From Plumapathes pennacea (taxonomy: Eukaryota; Cnidaria; Anthozoa; Antipatharia; Myriopathidae), in assembly GCA_964036295.1 (NCBI GenBank), contig OZ038465.1, forward strand, positions 19,190,831 through 19,254,830: 64,000 nt of DNA. The letters run 5' to 3'. The first letter of the stretch is position 1; each line of letters opens with the position of its first letter. The translations under genes and the position numbers were made by a program. Under the pieces are notes generated by a model, which worked only from the letters and a program-made list of their open reading frames with translations, was not told the DNA's origin and did no database searches. This document shows, in pieces, positions 1,255 to 62,289 of the stretch.

Positions 1255-1658
1255 GTACCTGTTCTTCACACAAGTACGCGGCATTTTGTACGATCTTAAA
1301 CGTATAGGTTTAAATGGCGAGGGAAAAAAGACCCTGCTTCTTAATGTCCCGATGCTGGAACAGGGTCTTACCGTCGACGTATCGTGCAAAGAGATTATCT
1401 GGATCTCAGGTTCCCCGTTTACAATTCACGCTCTTGATTACGACGGGAACAACCGCAGGCAGATTTTCAGTCAATCCGATACATCTTTTGCTTCAGCAAT
1501 TCCGATAATGTTGGGTAGTTCACTGTATGTGGCCGGGATATCACGTACTCCCTCAATGTGGCGTTTCGACAAAAATGGAACTCTGGTACATCGTGTGGAT
1601 TTAAACGAGGTTCCATTTGGACTTGCTGCGTACGACAATTCCTCACAACCGGCTAAAG
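1255..1658 (+). CDS. YWTD/LDLR-type beta-propeller exon
   Basis: The acceptor is ttttccag and the donor GTATAG, ending in phase 1. The 134 codons begin YLFFTQVRGILYDLKRIGLN and include IHALDYDGNNRRQIF and SLYVAGISRTPSMWRFDKNG. These are blade-like repeats of the LDL-receptor YWTD propeller: a hydrophobic strand, a Y-D/W-x-D-like turn, then 'dG..r..i'. Only part of the propeller (about three blades) is here; the rest must lie upstream of base 1. In LDLR-family proteins this fold is an extracellular ligand-handling module. Confidence 0.7.
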
Positions 1659-4600
1659 GTATAGTATTTGTGAAATATAAAGATTAAGATATTTGCGCAG
1701 GCAAATTTGGACTTTTTTTTTTGTTTTAATGATCGGGTAATAGATTTTCCTTTCTTGGTATGTGTGATTTTGAATTTTGGGGGCAGGACTTGAAAACCTT
1801 CGATTCCTCTAGCATCGATTTTTTCTAATTTGCGCTATCTTTTGGTATCAGATTCACCGTCCATTAACTGCTCTACACCACAGAACCAGATAGTTGTTGA
1901 AGGGAATGTTTTGACTCTCGAGTGCCTGGTGACTACAGGTAATCCAGCTGCAGCAAATATTTCCTGGGTAAAACGTGGAGGAAGCAGCAGAAATTTCCCA
2001 AACGCAGCAAGACTGTCCTTCAACGCTGCCCGAGAAGACGCTGGAGATTACTACTGTGTTGCAGACAACGGGATTGGACAACCGGTGCAATCAAGAGATG
2101 CGTCCGTGAATATTTTGTGTAAGTTTTTACGTTTTGCTGCAGTTTTCAGGGTTAATACAGTCGATCCCCGCTATTTAGAACTCGGTTAATTTAAAGACCC
2201 CGTTATTTCGAAGTCAAGCCGAATTACCTTGGATTAGATTGACTAGCTTGACTAACTTGGTAATTTCGAAACTCCTCTATTTCGAACTCTTTTTTCATGT
2301 CCAGTCGAGACTTCGAAATAATAACAGAAACTTGGAAATCACCATTACCTGTAGCTACAGTGAAACCCCGCTATTTCGAAGTTGCACGGGACATGAAAAA
2401 ATAGTTTGACATGAGCGAAGTTTCGAAATTACCAAGCTAATCAAGCCAGTCAAGCTAATCCAAGGGAATTCGGCTTGACTTCGAAATAACGGGGAATTCG
2501 AATTAACCAAGTTCGAAAAGCGAGGTTCAACTGTAAACGGAAGTGCAGCCAACTCTCTTTAAGCGGACACCTCTATAAGGCGGACACTAAATGCTACAAT
2601 CAGTGACAAAAGTCTTCGGACACTCGCACAGTTTCAGTAATTTCTCTACTGTTTCAATTGAAAGACAACTCCCCTCCCCCCTTTCAATGTTGAAGTGGCC
2701 TGAACTTGTTTTCCCAAACACACGCAACATTGTACAGAGTGGAGGGGGGAGAAAAATGGTTTCGCGCCTTTCAGTACGCTTAGTCAATGACTTCTGTTTG
2801 AGATGCATCAATTTTTGAAAGTGCTCCAAGAACTTTTGTCACTGATTGTAGTCCCAAGGGTGTCCGCCTTGAAGATTTCCCTTTAGTCTTATGTTTATTG
2901 TAGGAGACTACTCTAAAACTAAATTTGCAGTTATATATTGAACCAATAATTTGTTTCAGGTGAAATATTACCCAAACAACTGCTGATCGCATTTCAATTG
3001 CTTTCAATAAAATGCGGCACTTCTAAGACGTATAAAACCTGAAAATGTACTGAATGGATAGTTCGTAGCCTCATAAATTTATCGGCCCGTGGTATTTTTT
3101 TGTAGATTCACCGTCCATTAACAGCTCGACGCCACAGAACGAGATAGTTGTTGAAGGGAATGTTTTGACTCTCGAGTGCCTGGTGACTGCAGGTAATCCA
3201 GCTGCAACAAATATTTCCTGGGTAAAACGTGGAGGAAGCAGCAGAAGTTTCCCGAACGCGACAACGCTGTCCTTCAACGCTACACGAGAAGACGCTGGAG
3301 AATACTACTGTGTTGCAGACAACGGGATTGGAGGACCGGTGCAATCAAGAGATGCATCTGTCAACGTTTTGTGTAAGTAGTAAAGCCATTGATTCTAAAT
3401 TTAGAATCTCAATTTGTAGAGGAAATAATTATGATGAATAGTTTCAGCAATTCTGACCGTCGATATTTTTCAAAACAACAGCGATTTATCGTGTCAGCAG
3501 CCACTGAGTTTTTCACTGGTTGAGTCGTCATTTTCCTCTTGTAAGTAACTTTATACAGAACAAAAAACAAAAAAAGAACTGAACGTTAGTTTAGAATTGA
3601 TCATAACTCACATTCACAAATGAATTGAGTTGAATTAATCCAATAATTGAGGAAGTACTGCGACGTAAAGCCCTGCCCTAAAAGAGAAATGACTTGGATA
3701 GATTCTGTTGCGCTGAGTTTTCTCTGTATTCTGTATCAGTTCCACCGTCCATCAACATTTCCACACCACAAAACAAGACAGTTGTTGAAGTGAACCTATT
3801 GACTCTCGAGTGTCTGGTGACTGCTAATCCAGTGGCAAACATTTCCTGGACAAAACGTGGAGGAAGCAGCAGAAATTTCCCAAACGCAGCAAGACTGTCC
3901 TTTAACGCTGCCCGAGAAGACGCTGGAGATTACTACTGTGTTGCAGACAACGGGATTGGTGAACTGGTGCAATCAAGAGATGCGTCCGTGAATATTTTGT
4001 GTAAGTTTTTACGTTTTGCTGCAGTTTTCAGGGTTAATACAGTCGAACCCCGCTATTTCGAACTCGATTAATTCGAAGACCCCGTTATTTCGAATTCAAG
4101 CCGAATTACCTTGGATTAGATTGACTAGCTTGACTAACTTGGCAATTTCGAAACTCCTCTATTTCGAACTCTTTTTTCATGTCCAGTGGGACTTCGAAAT
4201 AATGACAGAAGCTTGGAAATCACCATTACTTGTAGCTACAGTGAAAGCCCGCTATTTCGAAGTTGCACGGGACATGAAAAAATAGTTTGACAAGAACGAA
4301 GTTTCGAAATTACCAAGCTAATCAAGCTAGTCAAGCTAATGCAAGGGAATTCGGCTTGACTTCGAAATAACGGGGAATTCGAATTAACCGAGTTCGATAT
4401 AGCGGGGTTCAACTGTAAACGGAAGTACAGCCAACTCTCTTTAAGCGGACACCTCTATAAGGCGGACACTAAATGCTAGTCCCGAGGGTATCCACCTTGA
4501 AAATTTCCCTTTATTCTTATTTTTATCGCTGGAGACTACTCTAAAACTAAATTTGCAGATATATATTGAGCAAATAATTTGTTTCAGGTGAAATATTACC

Positions 4601-7600
4601 CAAACGACTGCTGATCGCATTTCAATTGCTTTCAATAAAATGCGGCACTTCTAAGACGTATAAAACCTGAAAATGTACTGAGTGTATAGTTTGTAGCCTC
4701 ATAAATGTATCGGCCCGTGGTATTTTTTGTAGATTCACCGTCCATTGACAGCTCGACGCCACAGAGCCAGACAGTTGTTGAAGGGAATGCTTTGACTCTC
4801 GAGTGTCTGGTGACTGCTAATCCAGTGGCAAACATTTCCTGGACAAAACGTGGAGGAAGCAGCAGAAATTTCCCAAACGCAGCAAGACTGTCCTTCAACG
4901 CTACACGAGAAGACGCTGGGGATTACTACTGTGTTGTAGACAACGGGATTGGTGAACTGGTGCAATCAAGAGATGCGTCCGTGAATATTTTGTGTAAGTT
5001 TTTACGTTATGCTGCAGTTTTCAGGGTTAATACAGTCGAACCCCGCTATTTAGAACTCGATTAATTCGAAGACCCCATTATTTCGAAGTCAAGCCGAATT
5101 ACCTTGGATTAGATTGACTAGCTTGACTAACTTGGTAATTTCGAAACTCCTCTATTTCGAACTCTTTTTTCATGTCCAGTCGAGACTTCGAAATAATGAC
5201 AGAAGCTGGAAATCACCATTACCTGTAGCTACAGTGAAAGCCCGCTATTTCGAAGTTGCACGGGACATGAAAAAATAGTTTGACAAGAACGAAGTTTCGA
5301 AATTACCAAGCTAATCAAGCTAGTCAAGCTAATCCAAGGGAATTCGGCTTGACTTCGAAATAACGGGGAATTCGAATTAACCGAGTTCGATATAGCGGGG
5401 TTCAACTGTAAACGGAAGTACAGCCAACTCTCTTTAAGCGGACACCTCTATAAGGCGGACACTAAATGCTAGTCCCGAGGGTGTCCGCCTTGGAGATTTC
5501 CCTTTATTCTTATTTTTATCGCTGGAGACTACTCTAAAACTAAATTTGCAGTTATGTTGAGCAAATAATTTGTTTCAGGTGAAATATTACCCAAACGACC
5601 GCTGATCATTTCAATTGCTTTCAATAATGCGTCACTTCTGAGACGTATAAAACCTGAAAATGTACTGAATGGATAGTTCGTAGCCTCATAAATTTATCGG
5701 CCCGTGGTATTTTTTTTTTGTAGATTCACCGTCCATTAACAGCTCGACGCCACAGAGCCAGACAGTTGTTGAAGGGAATGTTTTGACTCTCGAGTGCCTG
5801 GTGACTACAGGTAATCCAGCTGCAGCAAATATTTCCTGGGTAAAACGTGGAGGAAGCAGCAGAAGTTTCCCGAACGCGACAACGCTGTCCTTCAACGCTA
5901 CACGAGAAGACGCTGGAGAATACTACTGTGTTGCAGACAACGGGATTGGAGGACCGGTGCAATCAAGAGATGCATCTGTCAACGTTTTGTGTATGTAGTA
6001 CAGCCATTGATTCTTAATTTAGAATCTCAATTTGTAGAGGAAATAATTATGATGAATAGTTTCAGCAATTCTGACCGTCGATATTTTTCAAAACAACAGC
6101 GATTTATCGTGTCAGCAGCCACTGAGTTTTTCACTGGTTGAGTCGTCATCTTCCTCTTGTAAGTAACTTTATACAGAACAAAAAAACAAAAAAGAACTGA
6201 ACGTTAGTTTAGAATTGATCATAACTGAAGCTAAGTGAAGCTAATCCAAGGGAATTCGGCTTGACTTCGAAATAACGGGGAATTCGAATTAACCGAGTTC
6301 GATATAGCGGGGTTCAACTGTAAACGGAAGTACAGCCAACTCTCTTTAAGCGGACACCTCTATAAGGCGGACACTAAATGCTAGTCCCGAGGGTGTCCGC
6401 CTTGGAGATTTCCCTTTATTATTTTTATAGCTGGAGACTACTCTAAAACTAAATTTGCATAGAGAATAATACATGGGCGCGCGGAGATATGAAATTTATC
6501 TTCGAGTGTTCATCTCGATATCTTACGAGTGAGCGAAGCGAACGAGTGGGATATCGAGATGAACACGAGAAGATAAATTTCATATCTCCAAGCGTCCGTG
6601 TATTATTCTATTTATTTCATAAACTCTGGTGTGATACAGAGATTTTCGCCACTATGAAATGCAAAAACATGCAAGATCACTGCTTGGCTGATATTAACAC
6701 ACGTAAAAATATCGTATTTTTACGTGTGTTCAGATACGACATTTCTCAGTGGCGGAAATCTCTATATCACACCAGAGTTTATGTAATAAAGTTATATATT
6801 GAACGAATAATTTGTCTCAGGTGAAGTATTACCCAAACGACCGTTGATCATTTCAATTGCTTTCAATAATGCGGCACTTCTGAGACGTATAAAACCTGAA
6901 AATGTACTGAGTGTATAGTTCGTAGCCTCATGAATTTATCGGCCCGTGGTATTTTTTTGTAGATTCACCGTCCATTAACAGCTCGACGCCACAGAGCCAG
7001 ACAGTTGTTGAAGGGAATGTTTTGACTCTCGAGTGCCTGGTGACTGCAGGTAATCCAACAGCAAATATTACCTGGGTAAAGCGCAGAGGAAGCAGCAGAA
7101 GTTTCCCGAACGCAGCAACGTTGACCTTCAACGCTACACGAGAAGACGCTGGAGAATACTACTGTGTCGCAGACAACGGGATTGGAGGATCGGTACAATC
7201 AAGAGTTGCGGCAGTCAACGTTTTGTGTAAGTAGTAAAGCTATCGATTCTCAATTTGGAATATCAATTTGCAAGGGAAGTACAATGAATAGTTTCGACAA
7301 TTCTGACCGTTTAAAATTTTGAATTTCTAACAGAACACTGGCGATTTATCGTGTCAGTAGCCACGGAATTTTTTTACTGGTTGAGTCGTGATTTTCTTCT
7401 TGTGAGTAACTTTATACAGAGCAAAAAAAAAAAAAAAAGAATGAAATCAAGGTTGGTTTTGCTTTGATCAAAACTCGCATTCAGAAATGAATTGCGTTGA
7501 ATTGATCCAATTAATTGCGGAAGTACTGCGACATATAAGCCCTGTCCTGAAGAGAAAAATGGCTTGAATAGATTAGCTGTCGCGCTGAGATTTTTCTGTA

Positions 7601-10600
7601 TTCTGTATCAGATCCACCGTCCATCAACATTTCCACACCACAGAACAAGACAGTTGTTGAAGGGAACCTTTTGACCCTCGAGTGTCTGGTGACTGCTAAT
7701 CCAGCAGCAAACATTTCCTGGACAAAACGTGGAGGAATCAGCAGAAGTTTCCCAAACGCAGCAAGGCTGTCCTTTAACGCTGCCCGAGAAGACGCTGGAG
7801 ATTACTACTGTGTTGTAGACAACGGGATTGGTGAACCAGTGCAATCAAGAGATGCGTCCGTGAATATTTTGTGTAAGTTTTTACATTTTGCTGCAATTTT
7901 CAGGATATATAGTTACTAGTTTTGAGAGGGTAAAGATGGCACTTCTATTGGTCAAGAGTCCCTTGTACACAATACACTGATCATCATTTGAAACTTACTG
8001 CACCCGAAATCAGAGTAACCGTGAACGAACGTGGAGACTTATTAAGGGCGGACTGTACCCAAGGGGCAGAGGCAATGCAGTGCAATTCTTTCATCACGAA
8101 CATCATACATAACCTATGCCGTGCACCGGGAGCAACAGCATCGGATTTGGATTGCTCATAATTCATATTCTCAGAGTACTTGGGAGTACAATCAACTCTC
8201 TCTAAGCGGACAGCATGCAGATTTGGTCGTTACCAATTTCTACTTGCTTCTCTATAACTGAACTCTCTGTAAGTCGGACACTAAATGCTAGTCCTGTGGT
8301 TGTCCACTTAAGACTTTTCACTGTATTCATATTTTCGTCGACGAAGATTACTAAAACTAAAAAATCTAAAACTATACTTACAATTATATATTGAACGATT
8401 AATTAGTTTCGGGTGAGATAAAACCCAAACGACCGCTGATCATTTCAAATGCTTCCAATAAAATGCGGCACTTCTGAGACGCTTAACTTTTTACCGCGAA
8501 CATGTACTGAGTGTATAGTTCGTAGCCTTATAAATGTATCGGCCCGTGGTATTTGTTTGTAGATTCACCGTCAATGGACAGCTCTATGCCACAGAACCAG
8601 ACAGTTGTTGAAGGAAATGTTTTGACCCTCGAGTGTCTGGTGACTGCTAATCCAGCGGCAAACATTTCTTGGACAAAACGTGGAGGAAGCAGCAGAAGTT
8701 TCCCGAACACAGCAACGTTGTCCTTCAACGCTACACGAAAAGACGCTGGAGATTACTACTGTGTTGCAGACAACGGGATTGGAGGATCGGTGCAATCAAG
8801 AGATGCATCCGTCAACGTTTTGTGTAAGTAGTAAAGCCATTGAATTTGGAATCTTAATTTGTAAGGGAAATATGATGAATATATAGTTTCAGCAATTCTG
8901 ACCGTCGATATTTTTCAAAACAACAGCGATTTATTGTGTCAGCAGCCACTGAGTTTTTTTACTGGTTGAGTCCTCATTTTTCTCTTGTAAGTAACTTTAT
9001 ACAGAACAGAAAACAAAAAGGAACTGAACGTTAGTTTAGAATTGATCATAACTCGCATTTACAAATGAATCGAGTTGAATTAATCCAATTAATTGCGGAA
9101 GTACTGCGACCTAAAGCCCTGCTCAAAAAGAGAAATGACTTGGATAGATTCTGTTGCGTTGAGTTTTCTCTGTATTCTGTATCAGTTCCACCGTCCATCA
9201 ACATTTCCACACCACAAAACAAGACAGTTGTTGAAGTGAACCTTTTGACTCTCGAGTGTCTGGTGACTGCTAATCCAGCAGCAAACATTTCCTGGACAAA
9301 ACGTGGAGGAAGCAGCAGAAATTTTCCAAACGCAGCAAGACTGTCCTTCAACGCTACACGGGAAGACGCTGGAGATTACTACTGCGTTGCAGACAACGGG
9401 ATTGGACAACCGGTGCAATCAAGAGATGCGTCCGTGAATATTTTGTGTAAGTTTTTACGTTATGCTGCAGTTTTCAGGGTTAATACAGTCGAACCCCGCT
9501 ACTTTAAACTTGGTTAATTTGAAGACCCCGTTATTTCGAAGTCAAGCCGAATTCCCTTGGATTAGATTGACTAGCTTGACTAACTTGGTAATTTCGAAAC
9601 TCCTCTATTTCGAACTCTTTTTTCATGTGCAGTGGGACTTCGAAATAATGACAGAAACTTGGAAATTACCATTACCTGTAGCTACAGTGAAACCCCGCTA
9701 TTTCGAAGTTGCACGGGACATGAAAAAATAGTTTGACATGAGCGAAGTTTCGAAATTACCAAGCTAATCAAGCTAGTGAAGCTAATGCAAGGGAATTCGG
9801 CTTGACTTCGAAATAACGGGGAATTCGAATTAACCGAGTTCGATATAGCGGGGTTCAACTGTAAACGGAAGTACAGCCAACTCTCTTTAAGCGGACACCT
9901 CTATAAGGCGGATACTAAATGCTAGTCCCGAGGGTGTCCGCCTTGGAGATTTCCCTTCATTCTTATTTTTATCGCTGGAGACTACTCTAAAACTAAATTT
10001 GCAATTATATATTGAACGAATAATTTGTTTCAGGTGAATATCACCCAAACGACCATTTCAATTGCTTTCAATAATGCGGCACTTCTGAGACGTATAAAAC
10101 CTGAAAATGTACTGAGTGTATAGTTCGTAGCCTCATAAATTTATCGGCCCGTGGTATTTTTTTGTAGATTCACCGTCATTAACAGCTCGACGCCACAGAG
10201 CCAGACAGTTGTTGAAGGGAATGTTTTGACTCTCGAGTGTCTGGTGACTGCAGCTAATCCAACAGCAAATATTACCTGGGTAAAGCGCAGGGGAAGCAGC
10301 AGAAGTTTCCCAAACACAGCAACGCTGACCTTCAACGCTACACGAGAAGACGCTGGAGAATACTACTGTGTCGCAGACAACGGGATTGGAGGACCGGTGC
10401 AATCAAGAAATGTATCCGTCAACGTTTTGTGTAAGTAGTAAAGCTATCAATTCTAAATTTGGAATATCAATTTGCAGGGGAAGTACAGTGAATAGTTTCG
10501 ACAATCTGACCGTTTAAAATTTTGAATTTCTAACAGAACACTGGCGATTTATTGTGTCAGCAGCCACTGAGTTTTTTACTGGTTGAGTCGTGATTTTCTT

Positions 10601-13600
10601 CTTGTAAGTAACTTTATACAGTAACTTTATAAGATTACTCTAAAACTATACTTACAATTATATATTGAACGATTAATTGGTCTCGGGTGAGTTATTACCC
10701 AAACGACCGCTGATCATTTCAATTGCTTCCAATAAGTGCGGCACTTCTGAGACGCTTAAAATTTCCCGAAAATGTACTGAGTGTATAGTTCGTAGCCTTA
10801 TAAATGTATCGGCCCGTGGTATTTGTTTGTAGATTCACCGTCCATGGATAGCTCTACGCCACAGAACCAGACAGTTGTTGAAGGGAGTGTTTTGACTCTC
10901 GAGTGTCTGGTGACTTCAGCTAATCCAGCAACAAATATTACCTGGATAAAACGTAGAGAAAGCAGCAGAAGTTTCCCAAACGCAGCAATGCTGTCCTTGA
11001 ACGCTACACGAGAAGACACTGGAGAATACTACTGTGTTGCAGACAACGGGATTGGAGGACCGGTGCAATCAAGAGATGCGTCCGTGAATATTTTGTGTAA
11101 GTCAGTATTTGAGCCATTGATTCTTAATTATGGTATTGAATATAAATTGCAGGGGAAGACGTAATTCCGACCGTCAATTAAAGCCATCGTGTTAGCAGTC
11201 ACTGGAATTGTTGGTGTTTGAGTCGTGATTTTCTTCTTGTATGTACCTTAAGTAGAAAAAGCACACACTGCACGCACATGCGCACACTAAGAACTCAACC
11301 CACTGATTTCCCAAGACATCAACGCTTTTGCTTTCACAGTCCAGGTCCCTACCATATATATATTCATTGTTTGGAATAAATGTAATTCACCAAACAAAAA
11401 CAGTTTGGTTAATTGAGTTGATTGATTCCATTAAAGAAGCCATGTCTTTGAATAAAAATGGATGGATTGCTTTTGTCTGGCTGAGTTTCATCTATGTTGT
11501 TTATTTTAGTATTTCCAATTATCAGATCCACCGGACATTGACATCTCCACACCACAGAACACTACCGTTATCGAGGGGAAGCTTTTGACTCTCGAGTGTG
11601 TGGTGACTGGGACTAACCCAGCAGCAAATATTTCCTGGGTAAAACGTGGAGGAAGCAGCAGAAGTTTCCCGAACACAGCAACGCTGTCCTTCAACGCTAC
11701 ACGAGAAGACGCTGGAGATTACTACTGTGTGGCGGCAAACGGGATTGGAGGACCGGTGCAATCAAGAGTTGCGCCCGTCATTGTTTTGTGTAATTAGCCA
11801 AGTTGTCAATTCGATTACCATACTGCTATTTGTAGTTAACATCTTTTTTTTTTCTGCATGGGCGAAAAAGCTGCATATATATAGACACCCTTCGAACGTT
11901 TTTGATAGGCTATCAGTAGCGCCTGTCTAAAATTTCACTTTGTTCATTGGATTTACTCAGACCCGCCTGAAGTGATGGTATATTCGAATAGAAGCCTGAC
12001 AGTGAACGAAGGTGCAGGCGTCACTTTGGATTGTAACGTCACTGGTATACCTGTACCAACCGTCCGCTGGACCAAGGACAACGAAAGCAGCACAATACTT
12101 TCATCACAGAGCAATCTGTTTATACCCAGCTTCAACACTATTGACTCTGGAACTTATCACTGCACAGCAAACAACAGCATCGGTTCCCCAGCCAATGGGT
12201 CTGTGTTTGTCACTACTGCAGGCAAGTTTTGCACATTATTATTACAGACGAGCTTTCACGAACGGCCAGGTTTTTTTTTTTTTCGCCCCGGCCGTTGATT
12301 CATGCATTTATTTTTATTGAACACTTAAAAAATATATAACGCGTCACCGTGTAATATAGCCTCACCTAAGCACGCGGGAAGTTGGGAGAACACGAGAGTA
12401 GCGTGAAACCACGAGGCCGCCGAGTGGTTTCCGGCGCTACTCTCGTGTTCTCCCAACTTCCCAAGTGTTTAAATGAGGCTGTATTACACGGGAACCGCGT
12501 TATATATTTCTTTTATCAAATAATTAGTCAAGTAAAATACATCACGTACCGCGTCAGCATGTAATATACTCTCATATTACACGGCTACTTAGCCAATCAG
12601 AACGCGCGTAGTATCATAGTTATTTGATAATACCATATAACGAACACCTCTCGACAACGGTAACGGTCAGCAAATTGGTTCGCCAAACCCCAACATAACA
12701 TCTCCACAATGGCCACAGAATCCGCATTTCTAGTTACGATGCAAACTTGTTTCTTCGAAATTGATCAATTCCGTGTCAGGACAGGTTTTTATGAACTGCA
12801 TAGCGATTGCCTCTCGCGCTTGGTATCATTTTATACCCCCCCTCCCCTTCCTCTCTTCCTTCATTAATTAGCCGCCTCTCTGCAACGCTCACCATATTCC
12901 CAGGGCAGCCGCTGCAGAGAACCGATAAGTAGTTTTTATGGTTGAAAAAGGCGGGAAGATTGGTTGAACATTGCTCCTGAGAGAATAACTGTAGCATACA
13001 TTTTAGTTTCACAGCTTCTTGAACATGTCGGCTGAGTTATCTATATGTTCTTATTTATCAGCTCCACCGTCCATTGACAGCTCCACACCAGAGAACAGGA
13101 CAGTTCTTGAAGGGAGCGTTCTAACTCTCGAGTGCTTGCTGACTCGGGATAATCCAGCAGCAACTATTTCCTGGGTTAAACGTGGAGGAAGCAGCAGAAA
13201 TTTCCGAAACGCAGCAACGCTGTCCTTTAACGCTACACGAGAAGACGCTGGAGATTATTACTGTGTGGCAGAGAACGGGATTGGAGGACCGGTGCAATCA
13301 AGAGATGCATCCGTCATTGTTTTGTGTTAGTCAAATTCTGCAGAATCCTTGTCCATTGTTAGCGTCAATCAATTCAGCTTCTAAAAGCCTCTACAGAAGG
13401 CATTTAGTAGAATTTTACAAGGGAGATTCCTACTTTAAACCAATGCTTTTTAGGCTCCGTTTGCATTTGACAATTTTTTCGGATACAAATTATCCGGATA
13501 CAAAGCCGGTTCCCATTTTCAAGTCCGAATTTTGTTACTACAGTTGGGTCACAATGGTGGCTCTTTTAAGAACCTCAAGTAAAATGTACTTAATTTATAC

Positions 13601-15642
13601 TCCCTTATTCTGAAGAAAGACTTATTAGATTATAATTATGTTATTTAATATTGTTAAGTTATTAGCTAGACCCCATAAAAGACTAGGGAAGCTTATTAAC
13701 TGAGCAAGGTTGTTAGATGTGAGCACGCAACAACTTTAAACGCGATGTTTGCATGGACCTCAAACGTTCCAAGGGAATTTCCATAGTCTTTTATGCCAGA
13801 TTATAGCCCATCATTGAGCTTTCCCCCCCCCCTCCCCCCCACATCCGAAACCCTTTCAAAATTGGTGCTCCTGTTCTAAAATCGTGTTTGTGTTTTTTTT
13901 TTTCAATGGATTCTCAGACTCTCCTGACGTAATTCCCCAACCGGAAGTCATCGTGGACGAGGGTGATAACGTCACTATAGAGTGTAATGTCACTTCCAGT
14001 CCCGTACCAAGTGTACGCTGGACCAAATGCATTCCAGGAAGCGGAGTGCTTTCCACACAAAGGAAACTGTTCATGCGTAACGTCAACGAAAGTCACTCTG
14101 GGACCTACCACTGCACAGCCTACAACGGCGTCGGGCCACCAGCTACTGGATATGTGATTGTCACCGTTCGAGGCGAGTATTCCTCTCGCGTAATTTTATG
14201 GTGCAAAACCCGTGTAGTCCCACAGGGCGCAGAGGAATTCGCTTGCCTACCATTATGTAAAACCTATATAATGACCTTCATGAATGATACCGCAAGACGA
14301 TTTTATCGCGGGTGCGCGAAGGCGTAATACTGACCTGACGCGTATACGTATGCCTTCGCGCGCCCGCGTTGTAATTGTTTTGCGGTAACCTTCATGTAAA
14401 TCAATATATAGGGTTTTTCATATAAAGCAAGCAAATTCCTCTGCGCCCTGTGTAGTCTTATTCTAATGACTTATCTTCTAGAAGTAACAATGCTTTAACT
14501 TTCATGGAAGATGTGTATTTTACACGAGCGTGATTGCTGATTGCACATAGAGCGGTTTTTAGGATCGCTGTCGAAAAGTAAAACCAAGGTAATTACAGCG
14601 CTAATCGCAAGGGCTGTGAGAATGTTTGTGACTTTGGTTTGGACCAACCCGCACTGCGAGGAAACGTCATCGCCGCTTGCCGCTTGCGTGAGAAGGTCGC
14701 AATCTGTTCTTTCTTTAACTTGTTTCTAGTTGTCCAAGAATGCTGAAACTTGTTTGGACTAAACCAAAAGCGTAGCAACACTGAAGCAATGATAAGAGTA
14801 TTTGCAACAGACATTCGAATAGCATATATTTCACTTTTCTGTGTCTTCAATGTTGGGCAATTTACTTGGACAACTTAGGACGAGTTAAAGTGTTACAATG
14901 GAAGTCATTAGCAACTACATTAATTTGTTAGAAAATGCATATTTGCGTGGTAGTTCATCGGCAAAGATGCCTTACAAACGGAGAACTACACCCCTGGAGT
15001 CTATTTGGACAAAGTATAATGGGAGCTTGATGTTGTGTGGGGAGTGTTCAGTTGTTTGTTCAGTGTACTAATACTTAAATCACTCGACTCGAAATCCCCT
15101 CACAAGTTTCTAACATACGTCTCCCCACCATCTAGTGAAGAAAGTTACCAAGTCAGGGGCCAACAACAGTAAGTACTTTGGGATTATATATTTTGTTTTA
15201 TACTAGTGTATATTCATTCCTCATTTTCATAACTAAGTCGTTCATTATAAACGAGATGAAATCTGTTTTTGGATTTGCGAATGTTTGATGCTGGACATCA
15301 TATAATAGAAAGATGGTGGTAAACATTGCTACTTTATTTAAATGCAGATCTAATGGATTCGGGAAAAGTAGGGGGGTCAGCTTTCTCAGTCATCCCTATC
15401 TCTGTCCAACATTAATTAGACGCGCTCTTTTTTAGAATCCATTGGCTTTGGTGTCCTCTGGTTTGCAGTCTTCTCTTCCATAATTGGCTCCATGTACTTT
15501 GTTGACAGGTTGGTAAATGTTTTCTATGTACCTTATTTCTCTCTACGTTAAAACTAAGACAAATTAACCATTTATTTCTTTATTGTCAATAGTGCAGATT
15601 TAATACTGACATTGTCTATTTCTCGTTGTTTGTCAGGATCTA
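1255..15642 (+). CDS. YWTD-propeller plus 15-Ig single-pass membrane receptor (partial at 5' end)
   Basis: Spliced gene, open to the left. Exons: YWTD 1255-1658; Ig1 1852-2118; Ig2 3106-3372; Ig3 3740-4000; Ig4 4733-4993; Ig5 5724-5990; Ig6 6963-7226; Ig7 7612-7872; Ig8 8563-8823; Ig9 9186-9446; Ig10 10168-10430; Ig11 10833-11096; Ig12 11526-11789; Ig13 11961-12221; Ig14 13062-13325; Ig15 13918-14172; stalk 15136-15168; transmembrane 15436-15508; tail from 15636, stop 15640-15642. Every Ig exon starts and ends in phase 1, so any can be skipped or added without a frame change, except Ig10, which lacks one base. Each domain shows the Ig cysteine pair and core tryptophan (LEC...SW...DAGxYYC). 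It is probably a cell-surface adhesion or recognition receptor of unknown ligand. The very short tail argues against intrinsic signalling. I do not recognise a named orthologue; the YWTD-Ig combination is an inference from one partial propeller exon. Confidence 0.8.
1852..2118 (+). CDS. Ig domain exon 1 (mosaic)
   Basis: 267 bp, phase 1-1, donor GTAAGT. The 5' half (tract 'ggtaatccagctgca', WVKRGG) matches Ig2 and Ig5. The 3' half (NFPNAARLSFNAAREDAGDY and VNIL end) matches Ig3 and Ig9, with the switch near the GGSSR codons. The first codon, split with the YWTD exon, gives Asp. Confidence 0.85.
2156..2535. mobile_element. ~380 bp palindromic MITE, copy 1 (intron of Ig1)
   Basis: Left end 'cagtcgatccccgctattt' and right end 'gcgaggttcaactgtaaac' are inverted; the whole unit is strewn with 'tatttcgaa' and its complement. 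No coding capacity. Further copies are at 4035-4420, 5031-5410, 9484-9866, a right-end fragment at 6240-6322 and a diverged copy at 36025-36196. Confidence 0.8.
2597..2848. mobile_element. 252 bp MITE inserted at TA (Tc1/mariner-like)
   Basis: The ends CAATCAGTGACAAAAGT and ACTTTTGTCACTGATTG are perfect inverted repeats, flanked by TA on both sides (2595-2596, 2849-2850). Empty sites ('aaatgctagtcccgagg') exist in the sister introns near 4486, 5470, 6382 and 9924, so both boundaries are exact. A related element is at 57325-57545. Confidence 0.9.
3106..3372 (+). CDS. Ig domain exon 2
   Basis: 267 bp, phase 1-1. The 'alpha' type: it begins attcaccgtcc, encodes WVKRGGSSRSFPNATTLSFN and ends VNVL, then a short intron. 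Almost identical to Ig5. Confidence 0.85.
3740..4000 (+). CDS. Ig domain exon 3
   Basis: 261 bp, phase 1-1. The 'beta' type: it begins ttccaccgtcc, encodes TANPVANISWTKRGG and ends VNIL, then a long intron with a MITE. The closest relative is Ig9; the tract 'aatccagtggcaaac' is shared only with Ig4. Confidence 0.85.
4035..4420. mobile_element. ~380 bp palindromic MITE, copy 2 (intron of Ig3)
   Basis: 'cagtcgaaccccgctatttc' at the left and 'gatatagcggggttcaactg' at the right end. It sits at the same intron position as copy 1, so it was amplified with the exons rather than inserted separately. Confidence 0.8.
4733..4993 (+). CDS. Ig domain exon 4 (mosaic)
   Basis: 261 bp, phase 1-1. The upstream intron end and first ~60 bases are alpha type (attcaccgtcc, cacagagccagacag). 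From TANPVANISW onward, including the VNIL end and the following intron, it matches Ig3. An exchange inside the exon explains this best. Confidence 0.85.
5031..5410. mobile_element. ~380 bp palindromic MITE, copy 3 (intron of Ig4)
   Basis: Same ends and same relative position as copy 2, followed by the same 'ctctttaagcggacacctct' block (5420-5464). Confidence 0.8.
5724..5990 (+). CDS. Ig domain exon 5
   Basis: 267 bp, phase 1-1, alpha type, donor GTATGT instead of the GTAAGT of its siblings. The protein is nearly the same as Ig2. The following intron starts like the Ig2 intron but is spliced to a fragment of the beta-type intron near 6230. Confidence 0.85.
6240..6380. repeat. Right-end fragment of the ~380 bp MITE plus adjacent block
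   Basis: The intron after Ig5 jumps from alpha-type intron sequence directly into the middle of the beta-type intron ('aagctaatccaagggaattc'), a breakpoint of unequal exchange near 6230-6240. Confidence 0.7.
6478..6790. mobile_element. Compound hairpin MITE in the Ig5-Ig6 intron
   Basis: Two nested palindromes: 'gagatatgaaatttatcttc' faces its complement at 6570-6590, and 'cataaactctggtgtgatac' faces 'atcacaccagagtttatg' (6767-6784). An element with similar architecture and partly similar arms is at 33905-34235. It is absent from the sister introns, so it was inserted after the duplications. Confidence 0.7.
6963..7226 (+). CDS. Ig domain exon 6
   Basis: 264 bp, phase 1-1. Encodes AGNPTANITWVKRRGSSRSF and GGSVQSRVAAVNVL. 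The closest relative is the frameshifted Ig10. Confidence 0.85.
7612..7872 (+). CDS. Ig domain exon 7
   Basis: 261 bp, phase 1-1, beta type (TANPAANISWTKRGGISRSF; VVDNGIGEPVQ). The upstream intron end matches those of Ig3 and Ig9. The downstream intron lacks the ~380 bp MITE seen after Ig1, Ig3, Ig4 and Ig9. Confidence 0.85.
8563..8823 (+). CDS. Ig domain exon 8
   Basis: 261 bp, phase 1-1. It has an alpha-type start and VNVL end but a beta-like TANPAANISWTKRGG centre, so it may also be mosaic. Confidence 0.85.
9186..9446 (+). CDS. Ig domain exon 9
   Basis: 261 bp, phase 1-1, beta type, followed by a complete copy of the ~380 bp palindromic MITE (9484-9866). Confidence 0.85.
9484..9866. mobile_element. 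~380 bp palindromic MITE, copy 4 (intron of Ig9)
   Basis: Same ends, same intron position and same following block as copies 1-3. Confidence 0.8.
10168..10430 (+). pseudogene. Ig domain exon 10 with a one-base deletion
   Basis: 263 bp where siblings have 261, 264 or 267. Near its 5' end it reads attcaccgtcattaac; the siblings have a second c (gtccatt). Splicing at the conserved sites would shift the frame of everything downstream, while the rest of the exon is intact and encodes a normal Ig core (NITWVKRRGSS...YYCVADNGIG). Either the exon is skipped, or the allele is broken, or the base is an assembly error. Confidence 0.75.
10833..11096 (+). CDS. Ig domain exon 11
   Basis: 264 bp, phase 1-1. 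Encodes SANPATNITWIKRRESSRSF and REDTGEYYC, with a VNIL end. The upstream intron end matches that of Ig8. Confidence 0.85.
11526..11789 (+). CDS. Ig domain exon 12
   Basis: 264 bp, phase 1-1, acceptor ttatcag, donor GTAATT. Encodes LECVVTGTNPAANISWVKRG and YYCVAANGIGGPVQ. More diverged in its flanks than Ig1-11; its introns do not share the repeated blocks. Confidence 0.85.
11961..12221 (+). CDS. Ig domain exon 13 (divergent class)
   Basis: 261 bp, phase 1-1. A second Ig class: NEGAGVTLDCNVTGIPVPTV, WTKDNESS, SGTYHCTANNSIGSP. The only donor that keeps phase 1 is GCAAGT at 12222, a GC-AG intron. Paired with Ig15, which has the same class and donor type. Confidence 0.8.
12360..12625. mobile_element. 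Hairpin MITE in the Ig13-Ig14 intron
   Basis: 'gggaagttgggagaacacga' faces 'cgtgttctcccaacttccc' around a short loop. It is followed by a 'gtaatatactctcat ... gccaatcagaacgcgcg' block that recurs in a Cav3 intron at 56020-56100. Confidence 0.65.
13062..13325 (+). CDS. Ig domain exon 14
   Basis: 264 bp, phase 1-1, donor GTTAGT. Returns to the first class (LECLLTRDNPAATISWVKRG; CVAENGIGGPVQ). Its alternation with Ig13 and Ig15 suggests an older duplication of a two-domain unit (Ig12-13 and Ig14-15). Confidence 0.85.
13918..14172 (+). CDS. Ig domain exon 15 (divergent class, membrane-proximal)
   Basis: 255 bp, phase 1-1. Encodes VDEGDNVTIECNVTSSPVPS, RWTKC and SGTYHCTAYNGVGPP. The donor that fits is GCGAGT at 14173 (GC-AG). 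It is the last Ig before the stalk and transmembrane exons. Confidence 0.75.
14205..14462. mobile_element. Palindromic MITE in the Ig15-stalk intron
   Basis: 'ggcgcagaggaattcgcttg' at the left faces 'caagcaaattcctctgcgcc' at the right. The inner arms 'tttatcgcgggtgcgcgaag' and 'cttcgcgcgcccgcg' also pair. Noncoding. Confidence 0.7.
15136..15508 (+). CDS. Stalk exon and transmembrane exon
   Basis: Two exons. 15136-15168 (33 bp, donor GTAAGT) encodes VKKVTKSGANN. 15436-15508 (acceptor ttttttag, donor GTTGGT) encodes KSIGFGVLWFAVFSSIIGSM then YFVDR, a ~20-residue hydrophobic helix ended by Asp-Arg. Phases 1-1 and 1-2 join both to Ig15 in frame. This makes the product a type I membrane protein. 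Confidence 0.65.
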
Positions 15643-31000: not shown

Positions 31001-31916
31001 AGGTCTTTTCGTTTCAGGGTGTTTTCAGCTTTATCTGTGTACTAGCTTCGTATTGAGATGTTACACGATCTTCTTGTTGTGCCTTGTCATGTCGTGCCAT
31101 GTCGTGTTGTGTCGTGTCGTGTTGTGTCGTGCTGTGTCGTATCGTGTTGTATTGTGTTGTGTTGTATCGTGTCGTGTCGTGTCGTGTTGTGTCGTGTCTT
31201 GTTGTGTTGTGTCGTGTCGTGTCGTATCGTGTGTCGTGTTGACGTGTTGTCGTGCCGTGTCATGTCGTGTCTTGTCGTGTCGTGTCGTGCTGTGTCGTCT
31301 TGTGTTGTGCTGTGTTGTGTTGTGTCGTGTCGTGTCGAAAAGAGCCGTGTCGTGTCGAACGAGAATGTGTCGTCATGTGTCGTGCAGTGCTTTTTTGTCA
31401 GTTCGTGTCGGGTCGAGGAGAATGGGGTACTTTCAATATGCTTGCGTGAATAAGTGCATGTATATGTTTGGTCACTTGCACAGCGTGCTTTCCTTGCAGG
31501 TTTTGTACGCCCGTGATGTTGATCAGAGAAGCACAACGTTTGAAAAAGCCATCGAAATGGGCAAAGAATATGAGAAGAGGACGAAGGTGAGGCGGGCAGT
31601 GTTTTCTGCTTTACAGCTTCTGATTCTGTTGGATCACGTTTACGTTTCATCTCATCACAGGCTTTGATCCTGAGAGCTGCCATACTTCGTAATCAAATCA
31701 TAGTGAAGGTAAGAAACGTTTACGATGAACTCTACCGAGCGTGTTATCAGTCCAAAGCGTTGCACTTTGAACATGCCACTTTGATACTTTTGCTGAACAA
31801 ACAAACAAACAAACAAACAAACAAACAAACAAACAGACAATTGTATCAAATCCCTTTTATTCTTGCAGAACCGGGACAATAGCAGTGCAGAGATGGCAAT
31901 GCCTGTCACCAGATAA
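25078..31916 (+). CDS. GPS1: COP9 signalosome complex subunit 1 (first exon not found)
   Basis: CSN1 is the PCI-domain scaffold of the COP9 signalosome, which removes NEDD8 from cullin-RING ligases in nucleus and cytosol. Exons: 25078-25167, 25720-25820, 25946-26023, 26318-26396, 26532-26593, 26716-26766, 27224-27308, 27586-27663, 28165-28219, 28739-28824, 29168-29262, 30058-30163, 30462-30542, 30750-30887, 31500-31586, 31661-31708, 31869-31916. They join in one frame to 455 residues plus stop. Diagnostic runs: [74 protein letters not shown] (TPR-like part), then the PCI part [36 protein letters not shown] and [12 protein letters not shown]. The first exon found starts in phase 0 with [12 protein letters not shown], matching the early part of animal CSN1, so about 10-20 residues are missing. 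They may lie in 23.8-25.0 kb, or translation may begin at the internal ATG at 25093. Confidence 0.95.
25978..26023 (+). other. Split codon at CSN1 exon 3/4 junction
   Basis: Exon 3 ends LNEA plus two bases (TG), and exon 4 supplies C (Cys) then [20 protein letters not shown]. The region between the N-terminal helical repeats and IDNAWVEAT is much shorter than in vertebrate CSN1, where a Pro-rich stretch is present. Confidence 0.6.
26850..26985. mobile_element. Hairpin MITE in a CSN1 intron
   Basis: 'ttattacatgggaaggagtg' faces 'cttttcatgtaataa', and 'gtatttttac' faces 'gtaaaaatac'. Noncoding. Confidence 0.65.
27340..27540. mobile_element. CCCTTTCACTCCC-family MITE, reverse orientation, in a CSN1 intron
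   Basis: Begins 'ttaaccctttcaagctcaaa' and ends 'gtgtgaaagggttaa', the reverse of the copy at 34883-35095. Confidence 0.75.
29436..29790. mobile_element. MITE with C-rich terminal repeats plus adjoining hairpin
   Basis: 'gcaccagtcagttgtaaccc' at the left faces 'gggttacaattgactggtgc' at 29699-29718. The left end has expanded to a run of ~29 C with one A (29461-29486 region). Directly after it 'tgcgagcagtggtttctc' (29727) and 'gagaaaccactgctcgca' (29767) form a second hairpin. Confidence 0.75.
29790..29998. repeat. Degenerate tandem repeat of 'gatatgtggtcggt'
   Basis: About 15 loosely conserved units of 10-15 bases (gtggtcgata, gtcggtacgta) in the intron before the CSN1 exon at 30058. Similar units are also at 29340-29430, left of the MITE, so the MITE may have landed in the array. 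Confidence 0.8.
31082..31350. repeat. GTCGT/GTTGT low-complexity array in a CSN1 intron
   Basis: About 270 bases of nearly pure G, T and C on the + strand, made of 5-base steps gtcgt and gttgt. Open frames of up to ~200 codons here on both strands come from the repeat. They overlap real exon 31500-31586 only by read-through. Confidence 0.95.
31796..31835. repeat. (AAAC)n microsatellite
   Basis: Nine to ten AAAC units in the last CSN1 intron, 35 bases before the last acceptor. A similar run is at 34421-34448. Confidence 0.9.

Positions 31917-43781: not shown

Positions 43782-62289
<18,508 letters not shown>

Follow-up and report, generated by a model that had tools for sequence, protein, structure and literature searches.

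A degenerate YWTD propeller exon ahead of fifteen immunoglobulin exons in a putative cell-surface receptor gene

The locus described here appears, with moderate confidence on our part, to be the larger, 3' part of a single gene encoding a receptor or adhesion protein of the cell surface. As a molecule it is of an ordinary kind, a multi-Ig surface protein; its head is unusual, and its array is young and changeable. The locus lies in a window (the whole 64,000-nt stretch that was analysed, C4:19190831-19254830) of a genome whose 290 Mb in 24 contigs were searched. Its features, numbered from the first nucleotide of the window, are as follows.

1255..1658, plus strand: C-terminal half of a degenerate LDLR class B (YWTD) beta-propeller, single exon with phase 2 at its start and phase 1 at its end (open frame, splice sites, homology)
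1852..2118, plus strand: Ig1, phase 1-1, near-copy type (exon table, Pfam)
3106..3372, plus strand: Ig2, near-copy type (exon table, Pfam, phmmer)
3740..4000, plus strand: Ig3, near-copy type (exon table, Pfam)
4038..4417, no strand assigned: fold-back (MITE-like) element in intron 3, with 118-nt arms that are 90% complementary
4733..4993, plus strand: Ig4, near-copy type, mosaic (exon table, segment comparison)
5724..5990, plus strand: Ig5, near-copy type (exon table)
6963..7226, plus strand: Ig6, near-copy type (exon table)
7612..7872, plus strand: Ig7, near-copy type (exon table)
8563..8823, plus strand: Ig8, near-copy type (exon table)
9186..9446, plus strand: Ig9, near-copy type (exon table)
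10168..10430, plus strand: Ig10, 263 nt, frameshifted near its start and otherwise open, both splice sites kept (exon table, open frames)
10833..11096, plus strand: Ig11, near-copy type (exon table)
11526..11789, plus strand: Ig12, near-copy type, among the more diverged copies (exon table, pN/pS, tree)
11961..12221, plus strand: Ig13, divergent, GC donor, placed by the tree beside the final Ig of the C6 arrays (exon table, Pfam, tree)
13062..13325, plus strand: Ig14, near-copy type, among the more diverged copies (exon table, Pfam, tree)
13918..14172, plus strand: Ig15, divergent, GC donor (exon table, Pfam, tree)
15136..15168, plus strand: candidate linker exon, 33 nt, phase 1-1 (splice sites and frame)
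15436..15508, plus strand: candidate transmembrane exon (hydropathy scan and frame)

The Ig exon array is present in the sequence far beyond chance. The exon table bears out the fifteen Ig exons of the first-pass annotation, from Ig1 (1852-2118) to Ig15 (13918-14172): all are entered and left in phase 1, they measure 255-267 nt, and their lengths are divisible by three in 14 of 15 cases, Ig10 being the exception. The description of the exons as modular and symmetric is likewise supported (15/15 phase 1-1), phase 1-1 exons being the ordinary form for extracellular Ig domains. The splice sites, which had been called conserved, are usable in all fifteen exons and have GT donors in thirteen, but Ig13 and Ig15 carry GC donors. 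The curated cut-off of Pfam Ig_3 (PF13927) was passed by all six exons tested of the fifteen (Ig1, 2, 3, 13, 14 and 15), which places the protein in the immunoglobulin superfamily. When 13 exons were aligned to Ig2, with Ig10 left out, eleven gave 77-94% protein identity, Ig13 29% and Ig15 35%. Since the frame of Ig10 after the lesion also reads as a near-copy, the earlier count of thirteen near-copies holds.

A phmmer search with Ig2 returned Fc receptor-like protein 5 first and then, among others in the best 60 of 109 matches, Robo, neurofascin, contactins, titin and Dscam. Like such multi-Ig receptors and adhesion proteins, the gene has a chain of Ig domains; unlike them, it has thirteen recent near-copies with duplicated introns, and a propeller head. 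The fifteen domains hold 48 N-glycosylation sequons, whereas 500 shufflings of the residues gave 22.2 (s.d. 4.0) and at most 33; the significance of this excess is overstated because the Ig copies are not independent.

The exon at 1255-1658 had been read as a YWTD propeller exon, and its kinship to that family stands. Among sequences of solved structures, phmmer matches it to LRP4 (whole-sequence E 2.2e-21) and LRP2, and within its own genome it is 31-32% identical to two YWTD exons. One of these, at 31% identity (two-sequence E 3e-16), is the exon at C4:2984208, whose PF00058 score of 83 bits clears the cut-off of 21. The window's exon, however, misses PF00058, whether taken by itself or with a portion of the upstream exon attached, and it is half a propeller, not a whole one. 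Upstream, an open stretch at C4:19185258-19185668, ending about 5.2 kb before the window, matches LRP2 and LRP4. Its identity to the initial propeller exon of one LRP-like locus is 33%, and it ends at the same propeller position as that exon. The upstream stretch and 1255-1658 would together form one full propeller in two exons, like the LRP-like loci read. The 5,000 bases directly before the window are N, so the intron between the halves is not seen whole. Because the propeller exon lies below PF00058, the function of the head may be altered or lost.

Between the propeller exon and Ig1 there are 193 nt, in which no further exon was called. Splicing of the one to the other is likely since the YWTD-then-Ig order is preserved at another locus of this genome. 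A misreading of two adjacent genes, one for the propeller and one for the Ig array, as a single gene would fit with a join that is predicted and with the run of N before the window, but we regard it as very improbable, given that the phases match at 1658/1852 and that the same order recurs at the second locus.

LDL receptor-related proteins have LDLa repeats and a cytoplasmic NPxY. The gene resembles the LRP4/LRP2/LRP6-type LDL receptor family in having a YWTD-type propeller in two exons, which matches solved LRP4 and LRP2, and LRP6 for the second half. It departs from that family in that the propeller, recognised as LDLR class B by phmmer to LRP4/LRP2, is too worn for PF00058, and in that Ig1 and the other Ig exons follow it, not an EGF-like exon. 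The more usual arrangement is seen at two other propeller loci of this genome, C4:3056001-3064000 and C5:26045001-26053000, where a two-exon propeller is followed by a cysteine-rich stretch, taken by eye to be EGF-like.

Propeller searches of the genome gave 68 matches with the C4:2984208 exon and 21, at E up to 1, with the 1255-1658 exon. Among the matches compared by eye, a propeller exon stands next to an Ig array only in the window and at C4:2.98 Mb; more such loci may exist, because 150 candidates were scored in each Ig search (150 of 339 and 150 of 729). At C4:2984208 the PF00058 exon is followed by 12 Ig exons forming a clade of their own, and a possible further Ig after this array gave no Pfam match. 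The search with Ig2 gave at least 134 matches (150 of 339 candidates scored). The 13 best, at 80% identity or more, are all in the window's array and the next best reaches 63%, so that among the candidates scored the near-copy type is confined to this array, and no second array close to it was found.

Arrays of the wider group are clustered at C4:16.98-17.77 Mb and C6:12.59-12.65 Mb. Genes with a discoidin (F5/8C) head were observed at C6:9.308-9.316, 12.589-12.597 and 12.636-12.650 Mb (L016-L025). In each of these three C6 arrays (9.31, 12.59 and 12.64 Mb) two F5/8C exons precede the Igs (confirmed by Pfam at the one locus tested, C6:9.31 Mb, where there is also a clear transmembrane segment). 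They are like the window gene in their related Ig array and in an Ig13-like last Ig, which matches Ig13 at 53-60%; they differ in the head, which in the window gene is a propeller. A tree built from 58 Ig sequences puts the 13 near-copies together with support 0.81 and the 12 copies of C4:2.98 Mb together with 0.98, while Ig13 and Ig15 cluster, at support 1.0, with the terminal Ig of the C6 arrays and that of L029 in the C4:16.98-17.77 Mb cluster. Because Ig13 and Ig15 group across loci and the near-copies group by locus, the Ig types nearest the membrane look ancient and common to the loci, and each locus seems to have built its own middle. This division into middle and end is not a strict one, since Ig14, of the near-copy type, sits between Ig13 and Ig15.

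The introns of the array carry the record of its growth. Introns 1, 3, 4 and 9 are 89-96% identical to one another, introns 2 and 8 are 91% identical, and introns 2 and 5 share 97% identity over their first 236 nt. Introns 6 and 7 are more diverged from the set of introns 1-5, 8 and 9 (75-85% over most aligned parts). The exons are mosaic: when they are compared in four segments, segment one of Ig4 is nearest to Ig10/Ig6, segments two and four to Ig3 and segment three to Ig9/Ig1, and Ig1 has four different nearest neighbours. Near-identity of introns (up to 97%) and mosaic exons point to recent growth of the array by tandem duplication of intron-containing units together with exchange between copies. 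Since the array would have changed in this manner, it is plausible that the number of Igs differs between haplotypes or individuals. The stretch of the intron 3 fold-back is also covered by the aligned parts of introns 1, 4 and 9 (in these three by alignment to intron 3). Intron 5 holds more fold-back repeats at 6463-6790, with 60-nt and 51-nt arms that are 90% complementary; these are probably a later insertion because that stretch aligned to no other intron.

The near-copies are under purifying selection and homogenised. Pooled over the 78 pairs of the 13 near-copies, pN is 0.091 and pS 0.218, a ratio of 0.42, with a bootstrap range over codon columns of 0.29-0.60 (the pairs are not independent). 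The ratio lies between 0.23 and 0.72 in eight Ig segments whose limits were set by eye, without a structure, the highest value belonging to the segment called BC by eye. Diversifying selection was seen in none of the segments, pN/pS being below 1 in 8/8. The pair Ig2-Ig5, with 5 replacement and no silent changes, runs the other way and is too small to weigh. Four chosen Ig sets from other arrays (8, 2, 5 and 6 sequences) gave 0.37, 0.13, 0.45 and 0.46.

These values bear on the first-pass suggestion that the Ig sequence varies as in a recognition receptor, which they do not support: purifying selection among the copies speaks against hypervariable recognition of the Alr type. The Alr proteins of Hydractinia are described as single-pass Ig-type surface proteins (PMC11067881). 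The window gene, too, predicts an Ig-type surface protein, and its array is plainly able to change copy number, as a polymorphic allorecognition-like receptor would require if Ig number and sequence varied between individuals and matching decided compatibility. Such a receptor is nevertheless improbable here, with purifying selection in all eight segments, copies homogenised and not diversified, and the near-copy type restricted to one array among the 150 candidates scored. Alr1 and Alr2 differ from the window gene in that the latter has direct Pfam Ig matches and no sign of diversifying selection among its copies; the comparison rests on little more than the shared Ig-type surface nature. The Alr family is marked by extracellular domains of high polymorphism and by sister genes that sit together in one complex.

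Ig10 requires separate comment. Its differences from Ig6 amount to 7 replacement changes over 190.7 sites and 7 silent changes over 61.3 sites, which makes the frameshift either a young one or an error of the assembly. Should the lesion be real, transcripts that retain Ig10 would terminate ahead of the membrane exon and those without it would stay in frame. The lesion, together with a worn propeller exon that has no PF00058 match and an uncertain membrane exon, could mean that the gene is on its way to becoming a pseudogene, and eight stop-bearing fragments at C4:16.98-17.77 Mb show that decay occurs in this gene group. We give this only a small chance, since 14 of 15 Ig exons are open, all fifteen have usable splice sites, pN/pS is 0.42 and the Ig10 lesion is, on the above count, recent or artefactual. 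The eight fragments have equal or near-equal match scores, lie ~60-165 kb apart on alternating strands and each contain an Ig match holding one TGA and one TAG. They look like an inverted segmental duplication or an assembly artefact, and the one copy read groups in the tree with the C6:12.64-Mb array.

In Dscam-type mutually exclusive exon arrays one exon per array is chosen in transcripts. Here, symmetric exons might instead be skipped in many combinations, so that splicing would yield many stalk lengths. All fifteen Ig exons have the phase 1-1 form that this demands, a transcript retaining the membrane end must skip Ig10 as it stands in the assembly, and the fold-backs (that of intron 3, and those that the alignments indicate for introns 1, 4 and 9) could pair and favour skipping. 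Symmetry alone is no evidence, however, phase 1-1 being ordinary in extracellular Igs, and we consider an isoform generator unlikely, slightly more so than decay and slightly less so than an allorecognition-like receptor.

At the 3' end, the transmembrane helix of the earlier annotation is retained as a candidate: the exon keeps the frame and encodes a hydrophobic stretch, which resembles the clear transmembrane segment of a paralogous gene no more than chance allows. The transmembrane segment of C4:2.98 Mb scores 75 against that of C6:9.31 Mb, reached by 0 of 200 shuffles, and 34 against the window's candidate, reached by 20 of 200; in a longer tail search an isoleucine simple repeat outscores the candidate. 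The product is likely to be single-pass. A secreted or lipid-anchored form is possible, because the transmembrane exon is without homology support. No tail shared with the paralogous loci was found, open reading frames downstream of Ig15 matching by eye only in repeat-like stretches, and no kinase or other signalling domain was noticed by eye downstream among those of at least 100 amino acids.

Other features of the neighbourhood were recorded. At 31061-31667 there is a strongly skewed low-complexity simple repeat with several frames open on both strands ([13 protein letters not shown] translation). The exons of an ion-channel gene occupy 47462-62289 on the plus strand; 3/3 open reading frames tested match PF00520 (Ion_trans), and by eye the channel has four domains and is of a calcium or sodium type. 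Roughly 18-25 kb before the start of the window, several successive open reading frames (L013-L014) resemble, by eye, repeated OST-HTH/LOTUS-type domains, MARF1-like.

Built on the exons with their phases and homologies, the duplicated introns, the purifying selection, the second YWTD-Ig locus and the discoidin-headed sister loci, an overall model can be proposed that we judge somewhat better founded than not: a surface receptor with an LRP-type propeller head on a long, conserved Ig stalk of recently copied domains. The gene would probably have arisen by phase 1 exon shuffling, whereby a propeller normally found before an EGF-like exon was joined to an Ig array. Its head would be the two-exon LRP-type propeller, one exon upstream of the window and the other at 1255-1658. 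Once spliced as predicted and placed at the cell surface, the head would bind a ligand from the tip of a long stalk, N-glycosylated and made of as many as 15 Ig domains, among them the older membrane-proximal types Ig13 and Ig15. The middle of the stalk would have been lengthened, and may be shortened, by unequal exchange of intron-containing units; symmetric exons would make a change in Ig number frame-neutral, selection would keep every Ig foldable, and stalk length could thus be polymorphic.

In a literature search that included the available parts of PMC11067881, PMC5119243, PMC6626399 and PMC10236652 and covered few subscription papers, no description of a YWTD-plus-Ig-array protein was found, which is weak evidence. 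The best reading of the locus and its relatives is a head-swapping family of surface receptors with an expandable, glycosylated Ig stalk. A bolder version, which we put forward as a long shot, assumes a family of animal, perhaps cnidarian, receptors whose heads (an LRP propeller or a discoidin pair) are swapped by phase-1 exon shuffling and whose Ig stalk length is fast-changing and heritable; individuals would then differ in reach and glycan load, a length code in contact or symbiont recognition. At present the locus has no bearing on allorecognition, its Ig copies being constrained and not diversified. It offers a clear case of an LRP-type propeller mounted on an Ig array with agreeing exon phases; comparators are at hand in the same genome, namely the second YWTD-Ig locus and the discoidin-headed relatives, and the locus provides a natural test of tandem Ig number as a polymorphic trait.
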